Shown here one piece after another: positions 2,193-37,765 of a stretch of 64,000 nt of DNA. The translations under genes were made by a program, and so were the position numbers. The notes below the pieces were generated by a model. That model did not search any database. It was given only the letters and a program-made list of their open reading frames with translations, and was not told the DNA's origin. Source of the DNA: a virus; IMG/VR virus record IMGVR_UViG_3300034175_000060, positions 1-64,000 of that record, one strand, 5' to 3'. Numbering within the stretch: the first letter of the stretch is position 1; every line of letters starts with the position of its first letter.

Positions 2193-2269
2193 CTGCCCGT
2201 AGCTCAGATGGATAGAGCACAAACCTTCTAAGTTTGGTGTCACAAGTTCAAATCTTGTCGGGTGGACCA
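2193..2269 (+). tRNA. tRNA-Arg(UCU)
   Basis: A 77-nt cloverleaf. Acceptor CTGCCCG pairs with CGGGTGG (two G-U pairs), D-stem GCTC/GAGC, anticodon stem CAAAC/GTTTG with loop CTTCTAA (anticodon TCT), T-stem ACAAG/CTTGT with loop TTCAAAT, and encoded CCA (2267-2269). It reads AGA codons, which are frequent in this AT-leaning phage and rarer in many Gram-negative hosts. Confidence 0.93.
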
Positions 2270-2717: not shown

Positions 2718-3368
2718 ATGGCAGCTAAAGAAAAGAGCAAACTGGGTGTTATCGAAGGCACTCTGGTATATGCAAAAGTAGGTCAACCTGACAACAAATA
2801 CCAGAGTACTGAAAAGGAATGGTCGATTGAAGTTATCGTAAGCGAAGAAATTGCGGACGAGTGGGATGAACAGTTCAAGAAACAGCCATCGAAGAAAATC
2901 AAAGCAAGTGATTTCTCAGCTAAGTACAAGATTGACTTGCCAGAGCATTTGAAGGGTGAAAAGAGCGTCTACGGTATTAAACTGAAACGCCAAGCCACTA
3001 ACGATGGTGAACCTGTTGACGAGTCCTTCCGACCGAAGATTTACATTGATGATGCTGACGGCAATCGTACTGAGTGCGGGCAAAGTCGTTTGATTGCGAA
3101 CGGTTCATTTGGTAAAGTAAGTTACTTTATTTCGACTAACGACTTCGGCACGTTCAGCCGTCTCCAGAATGTTCTGATGAAGGAAGAAGACTTTATTGAA
3201 TACGAGTCGAAATCTTCTGGCGGTGGTTCGGAATTTGGCGAAGCTAAGTCTGTGAAGTACGAGGAGCCAAAAGAGAGTGTTATGAAAACTCGTGCTGAAA
3301 AACCTGCACCTAAGAAAGTCGTAGAGCAAGACGACATTAGCGAAGAAACTGAACCAAGTCCCTTCTGA
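2718..3368 (+). CDS. Single-stranded DNA-binding protein (phage gp2.5-like)
   Basis: A 216-aa protein. The first 150 residues are a beta-rich, OB-fold-like body (IEGTLVYAKVGQPDNKY, YGIKLKRQATNDGEPV, RLIANGSFGKVSYFI). It is followed by a Gly/Ser-rich linker and an acidic tail ending DDISEETEPSPF. An acidic tail with terminal Phe is the protein-docking feature of SSB proteins, including T7 gp2.5. Position in the replication block fits coating of single-stranded DNA during replication or recombination. The start ATG 2718 follows AGGAAA. A GIY-YIG nuclease gene begins in its stop codon (TGATG). Confidence 0.75.
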   Translation: MAAKEKSKLGVIEGTLVYAKVGQPDNKYQSTEKEWSIEVIVSEEIADEWDEQFKKQPSKKIKASDFSAKYKIDLPEHLKGEKSVYGIKLKRQATNDGEPVDESFRPKIYIDDADGNRTECGQSRLIANGSFGKVSYFISTNDFGTFSRLQNVLMKEEDFIEYESKSSGGGSEFGEAKSVKYEEPKESVMKTRAEKPAPKKVVEQDDISEETEPSPF

Positions 3369-4327
3369 TGTCAGCGGCACTCATAGCAGAGTGCCTTCTT
3401 GATGTGAAAGACGAAGATGTGTCCAACATAGGTATTTACGTGATTACAAGTGAATCCGGTAAGTTCTATGTTGGACAGTCTGTTGATCTTAAGAAGCGGG
3501 AATATGAACACTTTAGAACATTAAGAAACAACACTCACCATAATAAGCACTTGCAGAACAGTTTCAACAAGTACGGCTATTTAGACTTCTATGTAATCGA
3601 ATATCATTATGACCCTTGGCAGCTAACAGCTAGAGAAGAATACTGGATGAATTTTCTTGACAGTTATTATAACGGAATGAATCTTACTCCTAGTGCTGCT
3701 ACTTCATTAGGTTGTGTCAGGACTGAAGAACAGCGAAGAGTTATTTCGGAAATTACCAAAGAGTTTTGGAGCAAAGAAGAAAACCGTAAAGCTCAGTCTG
3801 AACGTAAGAAGAATTTCTACAAGAACAATCCTGAAGTTCTTTTAAAGATGTCAGAGACAACGAAGAAGATTCTTAAAGATAGTCCTGAACGTTGTGAGAA
3901 GCACTCAGCACTTATGACTGAAAGAAGTAACACACCAGAGTGTCTTGAAGCCTTTACTAAAAGAATGTCTGATTGGCGTAGCACAATTTCATCAGAAGAA
4001 GCCCGTAAGATGGGACTTAAAACGGCAGCTACGAAAAAGTCCCTCGGTGATGAGTACAACAAGAGAATTTTACTTAAAGCTAGTAGAACTAAAGTAGTCA
4101 ACATGATTAAGGGTGACAGCCACATACAGTGGCATATTCTAAAATCAAGAGGCGGGAGACTTCTAACTACCTGTTCTGTACGCTGGACAGAAGCAGATGG
4201 TTCCCAGAAGCTAAAGCGTTTCTCGGCTTTGAAATATGGCGTCCTACCAGCTTACAAAATGGCTTTCTTGTACCGAGGTGAATTACAGAAAAGACTTCTA
4301 CTTGATTATGACGCTTTGTTGAATTAA
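3368..4327 (+). CDS. GIY-YIG homing endonuclease
   Basis: A 319-aa protein. Residues 22-100 form a GIY-YIG nuclease: NIGIYVITSESGKFYVGQSV gives the GIY and YVG elements, then the basic KKREYEHF helix and a catalytic Glu in LTAREEYWMNFL. The middle (about 120-240) is Lys/Glu-rich with short NUMOD-like repeats (LKMSETTKKILK, EARKMGLKTAATKKS). The end (ALKYGVLPAYKMAFLYRGEL) matches the C-terminal module of this phage's HNH proteins, so nuclease domains appear to have been swapped onto a common DNA-binding end. It starts in the SSB stop codon and is followed by a terminator. Confidence 0.85.
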   Translation: MSAALIAECLLDVKDEDVSNIGIYVITSESGKFYVGQSVDLKKREYEHFRTLRNNTHHNKHLQNSFNKYGYLDFYVIEYHYDPWQLTAREEYWMNFLDSYYNGMNLTPSAATSLGCVRTEEQRRVISEITKEFWSKEENRKAQSERKKNFYKNNPEVLLKMSETTKKILKDSPERCEKHSALMTERSNTPECLEAFTKRMSDWRSTISSEEARKMGLKTAATKKSLGDEYNKRILLKASRTKVVNMIKGDSHIQWHILKSRGGRLLTTCSVRWTEADGSQKLKRFSALKYGVLPAYKMAFLYRGELQKRLLLDYDALLN

Positions 4328-18243: not shown

Positions 18244-21200
18244 TTACACTGATGTTGTCTGCACTGCCGTTCCTTCTGGAGTTACATCAACAAATCGTTT
18301 GTACAGCTTACGAATATCATCCTGCATCTCTGATATAACTTGCATATTCAACTCACTGGATTTCTCAATAGCTTCAACTACCGTCGCAGAATCCCCACCA
18401 TTGCGTGATGCTTCTGCTTGCTGTGCAGTCAGGACTTTTTCACCCTTGTGCAAGCGAGCAATATAATTATCACGCGGTACTTTTTCTAAACCGCCCGCAT
18501 GAGAGCCGTCAGGATGTTTAGCCAAATACTCTGGTGATTTCATAAAGTCGGCAGCGATTTGTGATGTAGAAGTTCTCTGACTGGACCAGAAAGCCAACCC
18601 TGCCGAATCTGCTTTTCTACCTAAGATACTTTCATAAAGAGCCGCAATTTCAGCGTCAGAGGCAATCCCAGAACCAATAGGCTTACCATTACTCCCAACA
18701 ACACCTGCCTGCTGCTGAGCACCAATGGCCCCACCCACAGCACTGTTGAAAGATATCAAAGCTGTCTTCAAATCCATAATAGCGACAGTCGTACCATTCA
18801 TAGCATCCAGTTGCATTTGTGCTGCATTGAGGATAGAATCAAACTTAGCGTTTTGCATATCCAAAGTTTCTTTAGCAAGAACCAATTGACTTTTAGCTAC
18901 GTCCAATTGCCTATCAACAGCACTACCTTGTTCCTTGGTGATATCATTAAGATTGGAAAGTTTGCCTGCTGTTATTCCAATATCTTTGATATAGTCTGAA
19001 TACGAGCTAAATGAATCCGCTGGGTCTTTACTCAAAGATGCTAATGTATCTTTCATTTCATCTGCTGAAGGCAACTTACCCGTTTTTCTTGCAGTAGATA
19101 GCGCAGCATCAAGATTTGTTTGAGCTTGTTTGCGAGACATTGCAAACGTGCTTTCTGCAAATCCAGTGACAGTTTTGAAAGCACTATCCAACGAGCTTGA
19201 GAGTTCGGTAATAGCTTTTCTTGATTCTGTCAGCGATGTTACTTGAGCATTTAAAATGGCTGCTTGTGCATCGTAAGCTTTTTGTGCTTTATCTTTAGCC
19301 TTATCAACAGCTAAGCTGAGTGAATCAAAAGCGTTGTTAGCTGAATTCTTAGAAGACTCTATAAGATCATCCGACGCATTTTTAGCAGCTTCTGATACTG
19401 CAATAAATGCTGGAGCGACATTCATCAAAGCAGCATACATCTCTTGACCAGATTTAGTATTCAAGTCCTGTGCAAGCACAAGATTCTTAAATTTCTCCAT
19501 CGTGTCAGTTGATGCTAGCCCTAAACGATTCATCTCTTTAGTCAGGGACTCTTGAATAGGCTTCAACTTGTCAGCATCAGAAAGGAAATTATCAACAAAG
19601 TAGGAAGTGCTCTCTGTCAGCTTGTCAATACTTCCAAACAAAGCTATAAAGTTCTGTGAAGACTCAACTGCTGCAATACCTGTGGAAGTCATAGAGATGC
19701 CAAGCACAGCAAATACATCTTGCACTTGAACAAGCTGGTTAGCCACACGTGCCAGAGTTTCCAAGTATCCTTCGCCAACTTTCTGGAAATCCGCCAATCC
19801 TGCTACACCAAACTGTGCCATATCATCACCAAGTTTTGCAAAGGCTGACTCAAGTGCTGCTGAGATTTCTTCACCAGTCATATCTTTGGTGGAGATTTCC
19901 GCGATATTGATTGCAAATGTTTTCAACTTGTCTTCAAAAGCTTTTCCACCAATGCCCAATGTGTTTGCAGCACCGGTTACAGTATCTGACAAACCTTTGA
20001 TAATCATAGTGAATTGGCTATTGATTTCGTCACCAAGCCCTTTTGTCTCTGTCGAATACTTATCGCTTGAGAATAAGCCACCTTTTTTCTTGATATCAGT
20101 GTATTGGGAAGCTGTAACACCTTTAAGAAGTTCTGCGAGAGAACCTTTATCGATCTTGATACCAACATCTTCTACAGATTTTTTACCGCCGAAGATGGAG
20201 CCAATAACTTTGCCCATCAAGCCGCCAGTGAGCTTCTCGCCTATTGAAGCTCCACCAATCGAATTAGCAAACTTTTGTGCCGATCCCATCTGATCTGCTG
20301 CAACTGGACCAGAAAGATTAGTTCCACGCACTAATAAGCTAGAAACGCCGCTGATTCCTTCTACAACCTGACGTAAAGACTTGTCCATTGAGTTGAAGTG
20401 GACTAAGCCTAATCCTGAGTCTTTAGCAATCTCATCCAAAGCGCGTTGAATAGAATCGCTCTTAGCGCTGGAATCTCCGAGAACAGAGCCTGTACCATTA
20501 GATTTCTGCCGGAACTCGGAAGTTTGTGGTGCAGAAGAACTACCTCCACCAGAGAATCCCAATCCTGCCATGAGTGCCAAGAAAGCAGCAGCACCAGCAA
20601 AACCAGCCCAACCACCTTGTGCAAACAGTGAAGCCACACCAGAGGCAACTTTAGGTGCGATAGTGGCGATTGACGAAGCTATCTCAATTGCCGATGCCGC
20701 TTGGCTGGCTACACCCATCAACTTGTAACCTTTTGATCCTTCTGTGAAGAACCCTTGTGCCGAATTAGCTAAATCACCATACAATTTAGTTTTAGCACCA
20801 AGCGATTTGTTGTCAGTGTTATGGTATTTCGTAATTGCTTCAACCATTCCGCCAGCAGCTTTACCACTCTTGCCAAAAGCATCTGACAGGGAATTAGAGA
20901 TGGATTTACCAACTCCTGTCCACATTGTCTTATACTTTTCGGCCAATGATTTCTGCTGATTGAGTGCTTCTCCGTAAGCTTTCTTGTCACCTGTGGAAGC
21001 ATCTGGTGCATCTGCGAAACGCTTAAGTTTTTCAAGTTGTGCTTGCAAATCTGGCAAAGAGGCTTTATACTTGTCTGTGGCGTCTTGTGCAGCATTCCAC
21101 ATTGCAGCCAAACCTTGATCTTCCGAGGCTGTTTGAACTCCTTTGAGGGTGTTACCAATTTCCAATGCAAGAACGTTATATTCTTTCGAAAGTTCCTTGA

Positions 21201-23937
21201 CACGAGCACTGTCCATTGCGGAAGCTTGTAATTCTTCAAGCTGCCTCAGACGTTCACCAATCTCAGGGATTGTGTCACCGTACTTCTCGAAATCTTTCTG
21301 CACAGCTTTAACGGCTGGAGCGTATTCTGTACTCCAACGAAGTGCTGCGGCAGCTACAAAATTACCCTCTTCTTCAAACTGCTTAACTTGTTCTTTGGCA
21401 GCATCTTGACGAAGGCCAGAAATGTACACATCAGTTTCTTGTGCAGCTTTGCGTTTAGCTTGCTCGATGGCCTCTGTGTTAGCTTCTTGCAAACCTGAGA
21501 AACGCTCTACGTCAGCCTGCTTGTTCTTACCTTTTGAAGCTATAGTAATTTGTTTCTTAAGGGCATCGTCAATCTTTGCGTATTCTTCAAGCTGGTTTTT
21601 AGTGCTGTCGCGGATAACTTGCAGCTTGCCCATTTCACCAGCTTTGAATCTGCTGTTGAGCATATCATCAAAGTTTTGAATGTCCTTCTTGGCCGCTTTT
21701 ACTTGAGCGTTAAGTTTAGCAATTGAGGCTGCATACTGGTCATTCATCGCTGCACCATCAACCTTGCCGGACAACTTATTGGTAGGTTCATCTTGCTCAA
21801 CTTTGCGATTTTCTTTTGCAATAGCTTCAGTCAGTTCTTTGTTCTTCTTAGCTTGATTGAAAAGAGCTTCTTCCGCAGCAGAGACAAGTTTAAGATTGTT
21901 TGCAGCTTTAGTACGAGCACGATCTAATTCGTTTGTTGCTTTGAGCGCAGCAGAGACATCAAAGTTACCTTTTGTTTTTGCCAGATTTGCTTCAGCTTCT
22001 TTGATTGCGAGTTGATCCAACTGAATCATACGTTTACGAGATTCATCTTTCTCAATCTCAGCATTGATTTCTGACAGTGATTTACGATCCTTCATCTTGG
22101 AGTTCACTTTCTCCAGATGCTCTGCTTCTTTAATCAAACCTTCCAGATAGCCATTGCTGTAAGCTTCAGCATTCTTTGCAGAACGGTCCGCTTCCCCACC
22201 ACCCTTCAACAAGTTGTAAGCTGTAAGGGCAACAATCGCTGCACCAACTACAGCTAACAAAGGAGGGAAAAGGGTAGTCAGGGTTACTGTCCCCGCTGCA
22301 AGACCCGCAACCGCAGTAGTGATAGAGGCAAAGATTCCCGGCAACATCTGGAGTAATGGGACAATTCCCAGCGCAACTTTAATTGCCACAAAAGTTGCTG
22401 CCAATTTAGCCAACAAAGGTAAATTTTCTGCAACCGAAATTGCCAAAGAGGCAAAACTTTCTGCCAATCCAATAATACCATCTTTAAATTCTTTTGAGTT
22501 AAAGATACCTTTCATTCGAGCCGTAAAGGCAATCAACTCTGGCTCAATGCTTGTGAAAGTATCTGCAAAGCTTGATTTCAATGTGTTGAACATAGAATCA
22601 ATTTGGCTCTTGGCTGTCAAAGCCATCTGTGCAGCACCTTTAGCCGCAAAGCCGTAACTGTTATCTACATTCTTGCGGAATCGCTCAAGAGCATTCTCGC
22701 CATTACCAAGCTCTGTGTTGTACTCACCAAGCAACTGTGTAAGCAAGCGTTGACCACGTTCATTACTAATACGGCCTTGCGCCAACTTAGATTCGCTAGC
22801 ACTGAGAGATTTAAGCGCACCATCAACTAATTCAACAACTTCTAACAAAGGTTTAAAATTGCCCTCTGTGTCTTTCAACATGGCTTGTGTAATTCCCATG
22901 TCTCGGAATGTGCCACCAACTTTATCAGACTCTGCTGCCAATTCTTTATAGAAGTTCTTCAGCGCCGTACCTGCTGCTGTGCCTTTAATGCCCAGATTAG
23001 ACAACACACCCAAGCTTGTACCGATATCTTCCAGTGAAACACCATACAGACGATTTACTGACGATGCAGACTTAAATGCTTCTGACAAACTCTCAACTGA
23101 AGACATGGACAATGCTGCTGTTTTAGCAATCACATCCCCTACGCGTCCAAAACCTTCTGCCACATAACCTACAGCCGTACCAACGGATACCAGAGTGGTT
23201 GCAGCTTTCTCAATACTAACTCCACCAACTGTTGCAAGATTTAAAGCTGCACCAATTGATGAAGCAGCCTGACTTGCATTCAAACCCGCCAGAACCAGAG
23301 TTTCAAGTGCTTTGGCAACTTCTTGTGGTCCGTACACACCTTTACCCAAGTCTTGCACAACTTCACGAAGATTTTTAATAGACTCTACAGTTTCATTACC
23401 GCGAACACGGATACCTTCAAGAGTGTGCTCAACATCCACACCAACAGTCACAATACCCTTCAGGGAAGCTCCAATTGCCAAGCCTACAGCCATGCCAGCA
23501 AAGTTACCATACGTCAGCCACAGAGCGCCTAGCGAGCCTGACAAGCCTCGTGCGAGTGCATGAGCTTCACGCATCTCATTATTGTGGCGGCGCTGGACAA
23601 CTTCTGCACGTTGCAAGTTTTGATTCATTAAGTTGAGTGACGTGGAGAGCAAAGTCATAGCTGCTGCTAAGTCTGCTGTACCTCTTGCTGCTACACGTGA
23701 ATTTGCAGCCATGTTACCGAGTAATGCATCTTGCTCGCGCAGACGTGTTACAATGCTTTGAGTTGATTTAGCAGCCAACTCATTAGCCACGTTCATCTTC
23801 TTTGTAGCTTCGATAAGGGAGTTGATGCGACGTTCTGCGTTAGCTGCGGACGTGCCAAGGCCAGAAAGCGCCGTAGACGCCTCCTTAATTCCTACTGATT
23901 TTACTTCTACAATTAACGATGTGATGTCTGCTGCCAT
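18244..23937 (-). CDS. Tail tape measure protein
   Basis: A 1897-aa protein, the longest gene here, which by family knowledge sets the length of a non-contractile tail. The N-terminal third is helical with TP901-type motifs (LVLAGLNASQAASSIGAALN, VSVGTAVGYVAEGFGRVGDV). Hydrophobic segments occur near 140-175 and 490-580. The middle is charged coiled coil (about 610-1050), followed by a Gly-rich hydrophobic patch (LFAQGGWAGFAGAAAFLALM). Near 1755-1810 an ALYESILGRKADSAGLAFW segment resembles DUF4214, followed by the YIARLHKGEKVLTAQQA motif common near tape-measure ends. It lies directly after the G/GT genes, as in lambda. Confidence 0.92.
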   Translation of the reverse strand: MAADITSLIVEVKSVGIKEASTALSGLGTSAANAERRINSLIEATKKMNVANELAAKSTQSIVTRLREQDALLGNMAANSRVAARGTADLAAAMTLLSTSLNLMNQNLQRAEVVQRRHNNEMREAHALARGLSGSLGALWLTYGNFAGMAVGLAIGASLKGIVTVGVDVEHTLEGIRVRGNETVESIKNLREVVQDLGKGVYGPQEVAKALETLVLAGLNASQAASSIGAALNLATVGGVSIEKAATTLVSVGTAVGYVAEGFGRVGDVIAKTAALSMSSVESLSEAFKSASSVNRLYGVSLEDIGTSLGVLSNLGIKGTAAGTALKNFYKELAAESDKVGGTFRDMGITQAMLKDTEGNFKPLLEVVELVDGALKSLSASESKLAQGRISNERGQRLLTQLLGEYNTELGNGENALERFRKNVDNSYGFAAKGAAQMALTAKSQIDSMFNTLKSSFADTFTSIEPELIAFTARMKGIFNSKEFKDGIIGLAESFASLAISVAENLPLLAKLAATFVAIKVALGIVPLLQMLPGIFASITTAVAGLAAGTVTLTTLFPPLLAVVGAAIVALTAYNLLKGGGEADRSAKNAEAYSNGYLEGLIKEAEHLEKVNSKMKDRKSLSEINAEIEKDESRKRMIQLDQLAIKEAEANLAKTKGNFDVSAALKATNELDRARTKAANNLKLVSAAEEALFNQAKKNKELTEAIAKENRKVEQDEPTNKLSGKVDGAAMNDQYAASIAKLNAQVKAAKKDIQNFDDMLNSRFKAGEMGKLQVIRDSTKNQLEEYAKIDDALKKQITIASKGKNKQADVERFSGLQEANTEAIEQAKRKAAQETDVYISGLRQDAAKEQVKQFEEEGNFVAAAALRWSTEYAPAVKAVQKDFEKYGDTIPEIGERLRQLEELQASAMDSARVKELSKEYNVLALEIGNTLKGVQTASEDQGLAAMWNAAQDATDKYKASLPDLQAQLEKLKRFADAPDASTGDKKAYGEALNQQKSLAEKYKTMWTGVGKSISNSLSDAFGKSGKAAGGMVEAITKYHNTDNKSLGAKTKLYGDLANSAQGFFTEGSKGYKLMGVASQAASAIEIASSIATIAPKVASGVASLFAQGGWAGFAGAAAFLALMAGLGFSGGGSSSAPQTSEFRQKSNGTGSVLGDSSAKSDSIQRALDEIAKDSGLGLVHFNSMDKSLRQVVEGISGVSSLLVRGTNLSGPVAADQMGSAQKFANSIGGASIGEKLTGGLMGKVIGSIFGGKKSVEDVGIKIDKGSLAELLKGVTASQYTDIKKKGGLFSSDKYSTETKGLGDEINSQFTMIIKGLSDTVTGAANTLGIGGKAFEDKLKTFAINIAEISTKDMTGEEISAALESAFAKLGDDMAQFGVAGLADFQKVGEGYLETLARVANQLVQVQDVFAVLGISMTSTGIAAVESSQNFIALFGSIDKLTESTSYFVDNFLSDADKLKPIQESLTKEMNRLGLASTDTMEKFKNLVLAQDLNTKSGQEMYAALMNVAPAFIAVSEAAKNASDDLIESSKNSANNAFDSLSLAVDKAKDKAQKAYDAQAAILNAQVTSLTESRKAITELSSSLDSAFKTVTGFAESTFAMSRKQAQTNLDAALSTARKTGKLPSADEMKDTLASLSKDPADSFSSYSDYIKDIGITAGKLSNLNDITKEQGSAVDRQLDVAKSQLVLAKETLDMQNAKFDSILNAAQMQLDAMNGTTVAIMDLKTALISFNSAVGGAIGAQQQAGVVGSNGKPIGSGIASDAEIAALYESILGRKADSAGLAFWSSQRTSTSQIAADFMKSPEYLAKHPDGSHAGGLEKVPRDNYIARLHKGEKVLTAQQAEASRNGGDSATVVEAIEKSSELNMQVISEMQDDIRKLYKRFVDVTPEGTAVQTTSV

Positions 23938-24924: not shown

Positions 24925-25857
24925 TTAAGCTCTGTATTCAGAGTCTAGTTTTGAAATTAGTTTAATAAAGTCTTCTTGTGTTACATCCACGAAGCATTCT
25001 GTATATCCGTCGAATTTGTAGTCAGGTGATTTAAAATTCATCCTTAAATTCGATAATTGTTTCTGTTCTATATCTCTTGCGCGATTACCGTCGTCAAACT
25101 CATAAATAGCAACTTTTTCGAAAGGTATTCCTGATGACATTCTTATTTCTCGCAGGCGGCTTTCAGGGCGTTTATTAGTGATCCCTATCTTGATAGTTTC
25201 ATTAGATTTCAACACATAGAGAGATGCAGGCTTACCTTGACTAAACCCAGATTTGTTACATCTGGTGCAACCACAACCTCGTAAATGTGTACAAGGAGTC
25301 TGACTGAAGGTATAATCACAACGATTACATTTTATCTTTCCAGCGTCTTTAGCAGAGATATACTCAAATTCTGAATAATCATAAGTACCAATACCGTGTT
25401 CTTCCTCAGCCTCTTCTACAAATTTTTCTTTAGTTTTTGCTTGAGTAGGGCCAATGCGCTCCAAACCACACTTAGGACAACCATTACCTTCACAGAGATT
25501 CTGTGCTGTCGTTTCCACAATACCGTGTTTTAAGCAAACGAAACTGATCTTATTCTTACCTTTGGTGTAAATTGAATTAGAGAAATCATACAAATCTGAG
25601 TAATGGTTTATCATCTCAACCAAGAACTGTTCTTGTGTTTTGGTCTGAGATTTGCCACACTGAATGTCTCCACAGACAGGGCAACCATAACCTTGTTGCA
25701 GACTGTTAGGCCGGGTTTCAAAATCACCGTGCTCATAACAACCCACTGTAACTTTTATGTGAGCATATTCATAAACTACTCTGGAGAGGTCATACCTGTC
25801 TCCATGAATCTTTATAATATTCTCTTTAAACTTTTCTGTTGTAAGTCTAGGTGGCAT
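24925..25857 (-). CDS. Putative homing endonuclease: zinc-knuckle repeats plus T5orf172 (GIY-YIG-like) domain
   Basis: A 310-aa protein. Three treble-clef-like repeats (about 1-65, 70-135, 140-200) have the pattern VGCYEHGDFETRP...GYGCPVCGD, FVCLKHGIVE...GNGCPKCGL and IKCNRCDYTF...GCGCTRCNK, like DUF723. Residues 208-275 (PASLYVLKSNETIKIGITNK) match the T5orf172/Mug113 branch of the GIY-YIG fold. A paralogue lies at 26455. It sits between the major tail and chaperone genes and is preceded by hairpins, one holding its ribosome site. Confidence 0.75.
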   Translation of the reverse strand: MPPRLTTEKFKENIIKIHGDRYDLSRVVYEYAHIKVTVGCYEHGDFETRPNSLQQGYGCPVCGDIQCGKSQTKTQEQFLVEMINHYSDLYDFSNSIYTKGKNKISFVCLKHGIVETTAQNLCEGNGCPKCGLERIGPTQAKTKEKFVEEAEEEHGIGTYDYSEFEYISAKDAGKIKCNRCDYTFSQTPCTHLRGCGCTRCNKSGFSQGKPASLYVLKSNETIKIGITNKRPESRLREIRMSSGIPFEKVAIYEFDDGNRARDIEQKQLSNLRMNFKSPDYKFDGYTECFVDVTQEDFIKLISKLDSEYRA

Positions 25858-25964: not shown

Positions 25965-26435
25965 TTACGCTGCTTGGTAGAAGTTACCGCTAATTTCCAC
26001 GTTCGTATCGAACGAAGTAATCTGGTTGACCGAGCCAACGTTAATTGGAGCAGACATAACTTGACCTTGGAAATACAGAGTAGCTTGTGGCAGACCTGTA
26101 GCACCACCACCAATTGTCAGCTTAAACGAGTAAGCCAGTGGATCATCAAGAGCGATCAGAAGCTTAGCTTGACCCGGATCACTAGGAGCATAAGCACCTT
26201 GCAGAGCCAGTTGACCTGAGTTCGACGTACCCTTAAATTTATATGTTGTCGGATCGGCAACAGGTTCGTGTGTAATCAGCGAGAACACTTTACCGATAAC
26301 ACCAATGTTGGTCAGTTCTTTGACTTGAACGTAAGTTTGGGCAGCAAAGCCCGCAGCGTCAAAGGTTGCTGGAACAGCGTTGGAAGTGCAGATGTACAGT
26401 TTTGAACCTGCACTGGGGAAGGCTAGAGTAGCAAT
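25965..26435 (-). CDS. Major tail protein, no standard start codon
   Basis: The frame is beta-rich and reads PKIATLAFPSAGSKLYICTS, AQTYVQVKELTNIGVIGKVF, GQLALQGAYAPSDPGQAKLL and ends DTNVEISGNFYQAA, like lambda gpV-type tube proteins. The expected N-terminus begins right after the stop of the 26455 endonuclease. No ATG, GTG or TTG exists in frame before a GTG at 26288, which would remove about 50 conserved-looking residues. I annotate from ATT 26435, which lies 8 nt after AGAGG; GTA at 26444 marks where a standard start would be expected. The start could have been displaced by the endonuclease insertion. Gene order (tail terminator, this gene, G/GT) supports the role. Confidence 0.65.
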   Translation of the reverse strand: MATLAFPSAGSKLYICTSNAVPATFDAAGFAAQTYVQVKELTNIGVIGKVFSLITHEPVADPTTYKFKGTSNSGQLALQGAYAPSDPGQAKLLIALDDPLAYSFKLTIGGGATGLPQATLYFQGQVMSAPINVGSVNQITSFDTNVEISGNFYQAA

Positions 26436-26454
26436 TTTGGGTACCTCTTTATAG

Positions 26455-27177
26455 TTAAGTTTTATTTGCGGAGATTATCTCTCCAAATGTCTCTGTAATT
26501 TTTAGGTACAGATCGGAGCGGTCAACATCCACAAATGTTTCTGTGTAACCGTCAAAAGTTTTATTGATATTCTTATAGGTTTTCCTGAGATAACGCAGAA
26601 CTATTGTCTCTATATCTAAGGCCGTTTTGCCTTCAAAGAACTTAAGCTCTAATAGAACATCAAAATTTAGTCCGGAGTCTCTTGAGACTAGACCACACCT
26701 TTTCTTAACAGTGCGGTTAGTTATTCCGAGTTTGGTGTAATCATCACCGCAACCAAGTACATACAACGATCCGGGCCGCCCACTTTTGAAACCTGATTTA
26801 GCGCAATCAGGACAATTCTGCCCTTGTCGATGGTTGTCAGGTGTCTGATGGAAAATGCCGTGTAATGGGCAAATGATCTTGATTTTCGTAATCTTGTCTA
26901 AGTAGTCAACCAAAGAATAGTCATAAAAGTCTCCCCGAATCTCTCGGGTTTTCTCAACCCATTCCTCTGTAGTTGGACTGTAAGTAGGACTACATTTATC
27001 ACAACCTCTCCCCATCATATGAGAATCAGCATTTTGTTCAAAGTCACCATGCACAGGACAAGTAATAGTAACCAAGCTCCTACGGTTCTTATAAACTGTC
27101 CTATCATATGAAAACTTAGCACCATTTATTACTTTACTTCTTCGAATAAATTCCTCTGTGGTAAGCTTTCGACCCAT
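26455..27177 (-). CDS. Putative homing endonuclease: zinc-knuckle repeats plus T5orf172 domain
   Basis: A 240-aa paralogue of the 24925 protein with two Cys/His repeats (ITCPVHGDFEQNADS...GCDKCSP and IICPLHGIFHQTPDN...NCPDCAK), then SLYVLGCGDDYTKLGITN of the GIY-YIG-like domain. It ends DGYTETFVDVDRSD like its paralogue (DGYTECFVDVTQED). ATG 27177 follows AAAGG. It appears to use the ribosome site and start codon that would be expected to serve the major tail gene. Confidence 0.75.
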   Translation of the reverse strand: MGRKLTTEEFIRRSKVINGAKFSYDRTVYKNRRSLVTITCPVHGDFEQNADSHMMGRGCDKCSPTYSPTTEEWVEKTREIRGDFYDYSLVDYLDKITKIKIICPLHGIFHQTPDNHRQGQNCPDCAKSGFKSGRPGSLYVLGCGDDYTKLGITNRTVKKRCGLVSRDSGLNFDVLLELKFFEGKTALDIETIVLRYLRKTYKNINKTFDGYTETFVDVDRSDLYLKITETFGEIISANKT

Positions 27178-27186
27178 TTGCAACCT

Positions 27187-27543
27187 TTATTGAATGATGG
27201 CAGCTTTGACCACTGCACCTGTTGCTGCTGAAATTGCCACAACACCTTGCAAGAAGCTGCTAATGGAATCCAACTGAACGACTGACATACCACTTGCAGG
27301 AACCGTGACGGCATAACCAGAAGCGACTGAGAAGACTGCACCACCTGTGCCGGGAACAGCAATTGTCGTACCGCCTGCCCCATCAATTGTGACCACAACA
27401 GCACTAACGCTCGTATTCGTCAGAATAAGTTCTTGACTTGCATTAGCTACATATGACAGAGTGTCGCCAGAAGTGCCAAGAGTGACTTGGGCAGGATTGA
27501 TTGCGCCGGGGACGCCTTTTTGAGTATTTTGAATAGCAGCCAT
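27187..27543 (-). CDS. Hypothetical virion-associated protein, Ala/Gly/Val/Thr-rich
   Basis: A 118-aa protein of short beta strands (ELILTNTSVSAVVVTIDGAG, TTIAVPGTGGAVFSVASGYA). Composition and size are like phage decoration or tail-tube accessory proteins. It lies between the tail terminator and major tail genes. The exact role is not visible. Confidence 0.6.
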   Translation of the reverse strand: MAAIQNTQKGVPGAINPAQVTLGTSGDTLSYVANASQELILTNTSVSAVVVTIDGAGGTTIAVPGTGGAVFSVASGYAVTVPASGMSVVQLDSISSFLQGVVAISAATGAVVKAAIIQ

Positions 27544-27570: not shown

Positions 27571-27984
27571 TCAGGTGGGAACAACTTCGCCTTCTTGGCG
27601 ATAATTAATTGTGACAGGAACAATTCTCCAGCCACTCTCATCCTTGATTGCCCTTGACTTGAACGGAGTTTGTGTTATACTCACTGTTCCAGAAATAGGG
27701 ACAACAGGGAAGTGGGCGATAACTTTGTTTGCTAGTGCTTCACCCTTGCCAGCACCTTGCCCGGAGGGATACCAAACATTCACTTGCATAACTCCAAGTT
27801 CTCTGATACGATTACCGTCAACAGTAACATTGACAGTGATAGCAGGAACAATTACACATTCAAGGAATGGGGAGTTTGTAGGCTTAGTGAAGGGGGAGTC
27901 CTCAAAAGCAATCGGTAGAATCGGAACTTGTGCATCAGCAAAAGCTTTAAGTTTTGTTTCTAATTCTGCGCGAACCGTAATCAT
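27571..27984 (-). CDS. Tail terminator protein (gpU/DUF4128-like)
   Basis: A 137-aa protein. The pattern LETKLKAFADAQ, PILPIAFEDSPFTKP, FLECVIVPA and MQVNVWYPSGQGAGKGEALA matches small phage proteins that cap the tail tube and join it to the head. It overlaps the upstream gene by 4 bp. Placement before the tail-tube gene agrees. Confidence 0.7.
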   Translation of the reverse strand: MITVRAELETKLKAFADAQVPILPIAFEDSPFTKPTNSPFLECVIVPAITVNVTVDGNRIRELGVMQVNVWYPSGQGAGKGEALANKVIAHFPVVPISGTVSITQTPFKSRAIKDESGWRIVPVTINYRQEGEVVPT

Positions 27985-29377: not shown

Positions 29378-30055
29378 TTACCACATATCAGACCAGTGGC
29401 GATTACCTTTAGAAATGTTAGACAATCTGTCTATAACTCTGAGATTGCTTGAACAGTGAAGCCCGCAAACCTTCTCTGAAATTAACGGAACAATATGATC
29501 TACGTTATATTTTACACCTGTTACTTCTGACCTGACGCGTGACAAGTGGTATATCTCATCCACAAAGAATTGGTCGTCAACGCAATTCGCCCACGCCGGA
29601 ATAGCCCGCTTCTTAGAAGCCTGCCTTCTTGTCTGGTATTGCGTCAGGCTATGCCTGTTGGCCTGCCGCCAAGATTTGTTAACCTCGGCAATACGCTCTT
29701 TATTTATCTCCCGATATTTAATGCCGGAGGTTCTTATAGATTCTCTATTTTGTTTGTGGTAATCAAGAATATAATCTTTATTAATGTAATAATAGTTATT
29801 CGCGTACTCTAGGCGAACCTCTCGGTTAGCTTCGTAATTTAAATTGTTTGCTAATCTGATTTTGTCCCTGTTTGCAGCAGAGTATTCTCGCTGACGAGCA
29901 ACTGTATCTTCTCTAAATTGTGGGTCGGTCGCGTATTTAAGCTTCTTCTGCTTATTGCAACATACTTTGCAAGTATTTACACGGCTGTCTCTATTCTTGG
30001 CAAATTCTTCCAATTTTTTGTCAACACCACAAACTTTACAGACTTTCGATTCCAT
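29378..30055 (-). CDS. HNH endonuclease with N-terminal zinc ribbon
   Basis: A 225-aa protein. It has an N-terminal CKVCGVDKKLEEFAKNRDSR...CKVCCNKQ ribbon, a long basic Asn/Tyr-rich helical middle (about 50-140), then the HNH core VKYNVDHIVPLISEKVCGLH with CSSNLRVIDRLSNISKGNRH. It lies between capsid and adaptor genes, has its own promoter at 30082-30110 and a 10-bp inverted repeat before the ribosome site. Confidence 0.82.
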   Translation of the reverse strand: MESKVCKVCGVDKKLEEFAKNRDSRVNTCKVCCNKQKKLKYATDPQFREDTVARQREYSAANRDKIRLANNLNYEANREVRLEYANNYYYINKDYILDYHKQNRESIRTSGIKYREINKERIAEVNKSWRQANRHSLTQYQTRRQASKKRAIPAWANCVDDQFFVDEIYHLSRVRSEVTGVKYNVDHIVPLISEKVCGLHCSSNLRVIDRLSNISKGNRHWSDMW

Positions 30056-31688: not shown

Positions 31689-32369
31689 TTAAATTGGCGA
31701 AATGCCGGATTGAATCGACTTATCCCCAGAAGCATCTGGTGTAAGCTTACCGCTGAAAATAAGCCATTCTGTATCCTCGTTTGGATTCCAGCCTGCCTTA
31801 ATCTTTTTGAACATGGTAGATAGCTGATCTTTAGTTACACCGAGAGCAGTAGCTGCCTTGCTATAACCGTGAGTGGGGTTCTCAACAAAATACTTGTAAA
31901 CTTCGTCTGCCATCTTCCAAACACTCTTGTTGGAGAACTGGCACAACCACGCAACTTTTTTAGAATTAGTCTTCGCAGAGTTATCTAAAGCCGCTTGATT
32001 AGGTTTTCGACCTTGGGCTTTAGCGATAAAACTTAATTTTTGACGAGTGTCTTCTGATAACTTTGAACCTAATCTATTACAATTACCGCCAGCATCACAG
32101 TTATAGCCTATCCGAGGTGTTGGACGTAGTTTGTTTTCTAACTCGTAACAATATTTAACATCTGCAAGAATAACTTCTTCAATAATTAACAGTTCACCGT
32201 ATTTTCTAATAGCATTGTGTATTGGTAATTTACTACCTCCTCGTGCTTTAGATTGGTGTTCTTTAAATCGGTGAACAGCGCCTTTTGCTGCTACACCAAT
32301 ATATCCTTGTGAGAACATATCAGTGTGCTCCGGGAGGTGTATCCAGTAGACACAACTCTTACTTAGCAT
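31689..32369 (-). CDS. GIY-YIG homing endonuclease
   Basis: A 226-aa protein. CVYWIHLPEHTDMFSQGYIG gives the two strands of the GIY-YIG fold. AVHRFKEHQSKARGG and ELENKLRPTPRIGYNCDAGG carry the conserved Arg and Glu. The C-terminal half has NUMOD-like and HTH elements (ALGVTKDQLSTMFKKIKAGW). ATG 32369 overlaps the last codons of the scaffold gene. It interrupts the scaffold-decoration gene pair. Confidence 0.8.
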   Translation of the reverse strand: MLSKSCVYWIHLPEHTDMFSQGYIGVAAKGAVHRFKEHQSKARGGSKLPIHNAIRKYGELLIIEEVILADVKYCYELENKLRPTPRIGYNCDAGGNCNRLGSKLSEDTRQKLSFIAKAQGRKPNQAALDNSAKTNSKKVAWLCQFSNKSVWKMADEVYKYFVENPTHGYSKAATALGVTKDQLSTMFKKIKAGWNPNEDTEWLIFSGKLTPDASGDKSIQSGISPI

Positions 32370-32898
32370 CTGCACTCTTGTATTGAGCAGCAAATTTTGC
32401 TGCGAGGCGGGTTGCAGTATCGGCTTCGTCTACAGGTGTTTCCACCGTCGCAGCTACGCCTTTTTCTTGGAACATTTCTGATTTACTTTCAGCTTCACGG
32501 TTGACAGCAAATGCACTCAACACAGTATTGAAAGTGGTGTCATCGGCACCTTCCAGCGATGCCAGAACAGGAGCAGCGCCAATAGTACCCAGCACAGCTT
32601 CCAGTTTTTCTTTACGAGCAGCAATCACAACAGCTTTAGCTTGTGCAGCGAATTCAGCTTGAGCCGTTTCCGATGCAGCCAGTGCGGCGGACATTTTCTC
32701 AACTTGTGCAGCCATAGCTACAAAAGCGTCTTCTTTGGTTGCCAGAGCGGCTGTAGCCTGTTCGAGACTAGCAGTAAGCTCTGCAATAGTTGCGGCAGTT
32801 GCTAGTGCAGTCGCCTCAGTGGTTTCAGTCATTTCGACTTCCTCTTGAATAGCAGCTTGCACTGCTGGTTTAAAATACTTCTGAAGATGTTTAAGCAT
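32359..32898 (-). CDS. Capsid scaffold-like protein
   Basis: A 179-aa protein. Ala/Glu/Thr-rich helical middle (ATIAELTASLEQATAALATK to AALAASETAQAEFAAQAKAV) predicted as coiled coil, between the S49 protease and decoration genes, as for lambda Nu3. ATG 32898 overlaps the protease stop by 8 bp and follows AAAGGA. A scaffold would be cleaved by the adjacent protease after prohead assembly. This is inferred from composition and order. Confidence 0.7.
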   Translation of the reverse strand: MLKHLQKYFKPAVQAAIQEEVEMTETTEATALATAATIAELTASLEQATAALATKEDAFVAMAAQVEKMSAALAASETAQAEFAAQAKAVVIAARKEKLEAVLGTIGAAPVLASLEGADDTTFNTVLSAFAVNREAESKSEMFQEKGVAATVETPVDEADTATRLAAKFAAQYKSADAK

Positions 32899-37514: not shown

Positions 37515-37583
37515 AGCCTCCGTGGGAAATCGAATCCCAAGAACTTCCTTGGAAGGGAAGACCCACACCTTGTGGACGGAGGC
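37515..37583 (-). tRNA. tRNA-Gly(UCC), small D-arm
   Basis: Acceptor GCCTCCG/CGGAGGC, anticodon stem CTTCC/GGAAG with loop CTTCCAA (TCC), T-stem TGGGA/TCCCA with loop TTCGATT. The D-arm is reduced (CCAC-AAGGT-GTGG). CCA is not encoded. Confidence 0.75.
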
Positions 37584-37690: not shown

Positions 37691-37765
37691 TGGAGCCGAC
37701 TGAGAATTACGATATCTCGGCCTAATCATTACAGGTGATTCGCTCTGCCTCTGAGCTAAGTCGGC
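37691..37765 (-). tRNA. tRNA-Thr(UGU), odd anticodon and T loops
   Basis: Acceptor GCCGACT/AGTCGGC, D-stem GCTC/GAGC, anticodon stem AATCA/TGATT with loop CCTGTAA (TGT), encoded CCA with discriminator T. Position 33 is C rather than the near-universal U. The T-loop is ATCGTAA, so the 54-58 pair is A-U instead of U-A. Confidence 0.72.

Follow-up and report, generated by a model that had tools for sequence, protein, structure and literature searches.

The major tail (tube) protein gene of this uncultured virus carries, as alignment with related genes indicates, a start-codon substitution of ATG to ATT at 26435-26433, and there is about an even chance that the phage truly has this ATT and uses it as an AUU start. 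The locus is best described as a tail gene that is normal apart from its substituted start codon and that lies next to an ordinary mobile endonuclease gene. The window, which is the whole stretch of DNA analysed, comprises bases 1-64,000 of an 86,208-base contig (an IMG/VR record), and the gene order on its minus strand across this region is the tail terminator gene (27984-27571, with a PF13554 match at 27574-27984), a 118-aa gene with an ATG start (27187-27543), a free-standing endonuclease gene (26455-27177), the major tail frame (25965-26435, 156 codons and a stop if read from the ATT), a second endonuclease gene (25857-24925) and a 133-aa gene in the chaperone position (24884-24483); the tape measure lies at 18247-23937 (PF10145 match). 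The PHROG 158 profile covers residues 5-151 of the 156 in the tail protein (E 9e-17) and is matched by all five members of alignment A2, and its place, between the tail terminator and the chaperone and tape-measure genes, is that of a major tail protein. Further along the same strand, a frame at 24519-23950 has no start codon for 65 codons and shares its first part, in the -1 frame, with the end of the 133-aa gene; a GGGAAAT slippery heptamer lies at 24513-24507, and the overlapping pair at 24884-23950 looks like a programmed frameshift of the lambda G/GT type, the overlapping -1 frame being present in four of four relatives and the strict heptamer in three of them.

On the minus strand, no stop codon interrupts the tail frame between 26474 and its TAA at 25967-25965, and, read over its whole length from 26474, the frame contains no ATG, GTG or TTG before a GTG at 26288-26286. 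An initial annotation had reported a tail frame lacking a normal start codon and this is borne out by the sequence, with the correction that the GTG, 49 codons after the ATT and hence codon 50, is residue 52 counted from the P of PKIATLAFP and not residue 55. The same annotation placed a predicted ribosome-binding site, AGAGG, 8 nt 5' of an ATT at 26435, and the motif is indeed found there, at 26448-26444. Among the matches listed, the closest relatives are the contig represented by L019 and L026, whose tail protein is 80% identical, and L055, at 77%. The L019 gene reads AAAGGAACAATAAA-ATG-GCA-ACT-CTC-GCA-TTT, then CCA AGT GCA GGT, where the window reads AAAGAGGTACCCAAA-ATT-GCT-ACT-CTA-GCC-TTC, then CCC AGT GCA GGT; the L055 gene opens ATG GCA ACT CTC GCT. 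Directly 5' of the ATT, comparison by eye shows little in common between the window and L019 beyond the binding site and an AAA. The ATT shares its alignment column with the ATG of all four nearest full-length relatives in alignment A2, and with that of L055 as well, which supports the ATT as the expected start position, and the GTA at 26444 that had been offered as the other candidate fails, lying three codons before the start column of the relatives. The ATT thus occupies the position of the relatives' start codon.

Wider sampling of the family gave the same picture. Thirteen loci related by their capsid genes were fetched and 12 of these records were searched with the tail protein (L015 being left out), of which eight matched; in these eight and in a ninth locus, L002, an ATG lies no more than three codons from the ATT position (9 of 9). 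A wider search with the tail protein yielded 81 loci, namely the best 80 of 294 viral loci and one MAG contig, of which four repeat records of the nine-relative set and two are one contig, the MAG contig being the viral locus L120. All 81 loci (the MAG contig plus the best 80 of the 294 viral ones) have an ATG no more than 12 codons away from the expected place, as scored by a script that, given several starts within 12 codons, weighed ATG and binding-site strength. Of two scans of genome contigs with the tail protein, the first gave no relative and the second gave one MAG contig (L120), with an ATG. AUU was seen at the tail start in none of the nine relatives and in none of the 81 loci (the best 80 of 294 viral loci plus the MAG contig). 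Phage records were matched in 41 cases, from which six regions were fetched and five tail genes translated, and the annotated start is Met in all five, 5-8 residues before an (S/A)-(A/T)-G motif. A megablast of phage records with the region gave no match, and a pattern scan of viral contigs for a near-identical start region gave 0 matches and no second record with ATT.

Between the ATT and the GTG, the 48 codons 2-49 compare with those of L019 as 20 identical, 22 synonymous and 6 non-synonymous, and third positions account for 24 of the 31 nucleotide differences (p = 6e-7). By this pattern the stretch is coding sequence, more than a chance open frame, and the constraint extends right up to the ATT. 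Given that codons 2-49 have been under coding constraint, a start at GTG 26288 since the divergence from L019 is disfavoured; the shortened protein would lose 49 constrained codons and its start would have a weak binding site (-3.0). This candidate start was rejected.

The upstream endonuclease gene runs from an ATG at 27177 to a TAA at 26457-26455, downstream of the stop of the 118-aa gene and upstream of the binding site that belongs to the tail gene, and matches PHROG 681 (E 3e-52) and Pfam DUF723 (E 1.5e-4). From its motifs we take it to be a GIY-YIG enzyme; of the two endonucleases that flank the tail gene, T5orf172 is matched solely by the neighbour at 24925-25857. A search with its protein found two relatives, 38% identical, and six of the related capsid loci also carry relatives of the gene, in positions that vary. 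Four endonuclease-like genes lie within 7.5 kb amid the structural genes of the window, at 24925-25857, 26455-27177, 29378-30055 and 31689-32393, all on the minus strand. The comparison with relatives lacking the insertion, which had been proposed as a check, was informative: in L019 and L055 the homologue of the 118-aa gene (71% and 72% identical, respectively) adjoins the tail gene, and the spacer from its stop to the tail ATG is 17 nt and 18 nt, respectively, with no nuclease there; both contigs carry related nuclease genes at other places. At the same junction in L023 there is a nuclease of the endonuclease's family (39% identical), and the tail gene there retains its ATG and its own site, so the tail ATG can survive an insertion at this junction. 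L023, whose nuclease lies at 2969-4114, is a more distant relative of the window, and insertions may recur at this junction.

It had been supposed that the nuclease entered at codon 1 itself and took the tail ATG, so that the tail gene would now start at a new ATT or at GTA 26444. The start of the endonuclease gene lends this some appearance of support: its ATG comes directly after the upstream gene with an AAAGG site (27188-27184), which overlaps and trails the stop of the 118-aa gene, TAA 27189-27187. However, the gene sits upstream of the tail gene's own binding site, this site and the AAA persist 5' of the tail start as they do in L019, the column of the ATG holds ATT and not GTA, and the supposition is contradicted by L019 and L055 and by the intact ATG beside the L023 nuclease. 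An insertion at codon 1 is therefore very improbable. As judged from where the gene lies in relation to these features, the endonuclease is a separate upstream insertion that did not take over the start codon, and it does not look like the cause of the ATT. A spliced or bypassed mRNA that joins an upstream start would also account for a frame without a start codon, and intron splicing is known in phage capsid and tail genes, according to an excerpt of PMC3706429. This, too, finds little in its favour here, given that the ATT is where homology to the closest relatives starts and so no exon is missing, that the short stretches flanking the endonuclease gene leave no room for an intron core, and that no intron family reached the Rfam gathering score in the window, where the only two hits were both tRNAs. 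Intron, splicing and bypass were dropped as unneeded for the tail frame, and such an mRNA, or in its place a shortened protein from GTG 26288 with the losses described above, is scarcely credible.

The start-codon substitution might be expected to go with a stronger binding site. In an excerpt of PMC5622118, non-AUG starts are reported generally to accompany stronger Shine-Dalgarno (SD) motifs. The predicted duplex of the window site with the 16S tail (GAGGU, from GAGGT at 26447-26443) is -7.1 kcal/mol, against -1.4 to -6.1 kcal/mol in eight relatives (L002 left out). Sites as strong or stronger precede 21 of 98 genes of the contig, each taken from its first canonical start, and 15 of the 81 tail genes of relatives (the best 80 of 294 viral loci and the MAG contig), all with ATG. 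Furthermore, GAGGT is paired in the predicted fold of the start region and the predicted cost of opening is 2.3-2.6 kcal/mol in the window, against 0.8-0.9 kcal/mol in L019 and 1.2 kcal/mol in L055, leaving a net of about -4.5 to -4.8 kcal/mol for the window, -4.7 to -4.8 kcal/mol for L019 and -4.4 kcal/mol for L055. The stronger pairing is cancelled by the predicted opening cost and no compensation is therefore claimed; a stronger site as a clear compensation for the ATT was rejected, the net being ordinary after opening. On these folding predictions, the tail gene would be no clear example of a non-AUG start with a stronger SD motif.

The substitution is alone of its kind among the genes that could be compared. 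Homologous genes of the contig and four relatives provided 385 gene-by-genome cases, restricted to frames of at least 60 codons with a retained homologue aligning near the start and to shifts of more than 12 codons, and in 31 of the 385 one or more relatives pointed to a missing start at the aligned position. With one relative considered per case, 25 of the 31 have the relative's start aligned upstream of the stop codon after which the present frame begins, and the start of that relative has probably been called too far upstream; in two of those 25 an ATG is aligned with a near-cognate codon (G006_426, ATT; G001_299, ACG), but ahead of the opening stop. The remaining six fall within the open frame. 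Besides the tail gene and three chaperone frames they include G008_117 and G008_174, in which a GTG or TTG of one relative stands opposite TGT or ACA. The tail gene was flagged by four of four relatives and is the sole case, among the 385, of a relative's ATG with a binding site opposite a near-cognate codon in an open frame. On this result, the idea that the phage generally uses AUU starts was rejected. Assembly quality was approached through frame breaks, a test nearly blind to substitutions, and none was found in the matched genes (77 of G001, 34 of G006, 39 of G008 and 46 of G002). The best match crosses a stop in the contig in 3 of 77, 2 of 34, 0 of 39 and 1 of 46 cases for G001, G006, G008 and G002, respectively, and in the reverse comparisons a stop is crossed in 3 of 83 (G001) and 0 of 45 (G006); in the one such match inspected, the stop is five codons in, just 5' of an ATG. 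By the frame-break measure, the contig shows no sign of poor assembly.

Given that the T rests on a single assembled sequence, it is possible that the phage has a normal ATG and that the third base is a consensus error or a minority variant picked by the assembler, which would explain the same letters. This reading comes somewhat short of an even chance. The record is from an uncultured virus, an ATG is present in all nine relatives and in all 81 loci (the best 80 of 294 viral loci and the MAG contig), a single base in a single gene departs while no other testable gene does, and it can be reasoned that chance cases of this kind are expected if many contigs are scanned. Against it, there is no direct evidence of error, and the matched genes are free of frame breaks, in a test that would hardly register a substitution. 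If the mutation is real, the genome might instead be defective, from a recently inactivated or helper-dependent phage lineage, as a start other than AUG should be harmful in a protein both essential and abundant, on the evidence excerpted from PMC13009471 and PMC10158994. This is improbable, the remaining tail frame being intact and under purifying selection and the matched genes unbroken. A real AUU start is favoured by the presence of a binding site at ordinary spacing before the start that homology defines, by neighbouring genes that the frame-break test shows as intact, and by the precedent of AUU starts in bacteria. The tail tube requires many subunits, and a large loss of initiation should therefore be costly.

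The gene is otherwise intact, with its own ribosome-binding site retained. If the ATT is used, initiation at AUU would most likely be by initiator fMet-tRNA, giving (f)Met-ATLAFPSAGSKLYIC..., an N-terminus as in the closest relatives. No phage initiator tRNA is evident: the tRNA genes are Arg(tct) at 2193-2269 (+), Gly(tcc) at 37515-37583 (-) and Thr(tgt) at 37691-37765 (-), and ARAGORN found no further tRNA in the remainder of the contig. The start could be assisted by ribosomes arriving from the endonuclease stop codon 19 nt upstream, and from the layout of the two genes a coupling to this stop is conceivable. In an excerpt of PMC2268962, re-initiation used non-canonical codons with a mutant initiator tRNA or an inactivated recycling factor, and extra IF3 reduced it. 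We infer that the ATT may be real in the phage, that ribosomes may use it and that coupling may give some help. The fuller account, in which an essential, abundant virion protein is naturally AUU-initiated, is tolerated through ribosomes fed from the inserted endonuclease gene and represents start-codon decay beside a mobile element, is less likely than not.

Were the AUU start real, an abundant structural protein of a phage would be translated from AUU and would offer a natural test of substitutes for AUG, and such a start would be mis-annotated by start sets of ATG, GTG and TTG, which, as in the open reading frame list used here, place the tail start 49 codons late. Were the ATT an error, it would be a caution on single-base readings in uncultured contigs. 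An AUG-to-AUU switch is rare, at one among 61,358 ancestral AUG starts in prokaryotes in an excerpt of PMC5622118, and in an excerpt of PMC10158994 in vitro expression was very low for weak codon-anticodon pairs, to which class AUU/CAU belongs. In the literature searched, titles and abstract openings named no phage structural gene with an AUU or ATT start. Outside phages, the titles of cited references give E. coli infC and pcnB as having AUU starts, and an excerpt of PMC13009471 gives S. aureus cvfC1, whose AUU yielded about 10% of AUG in a reporter.

Compared with free-standing homing endonuclease genes, the insertion is typical in being a PHROG 681 gene between two structural genes, at a place that is empty in the two closest relatives, and differs solely in having a downstream gene with an altered start codon, of which it does not look like the cause. 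What the tail gene has in common with infC, pcnB and cvfC1, as far as titles and excerpts describe these genes, is an AUU start codon with an upstream SD motif. In cvfC1, by the same excerpt, the non-canonical start and a very strong SD are conserved among staphylococci, whereas the examined relatives of the tail gene have ATG and its SD is not clearly exceptional. It differs from all three in being structural, in that its product should be abundant, and in that its use of AUU is predicted from sequence. Among the major tail proteins of PHROG 158, it is alike in family, length and gene neighbourhood and unlike in its start, which in the examined relatives is ATG.
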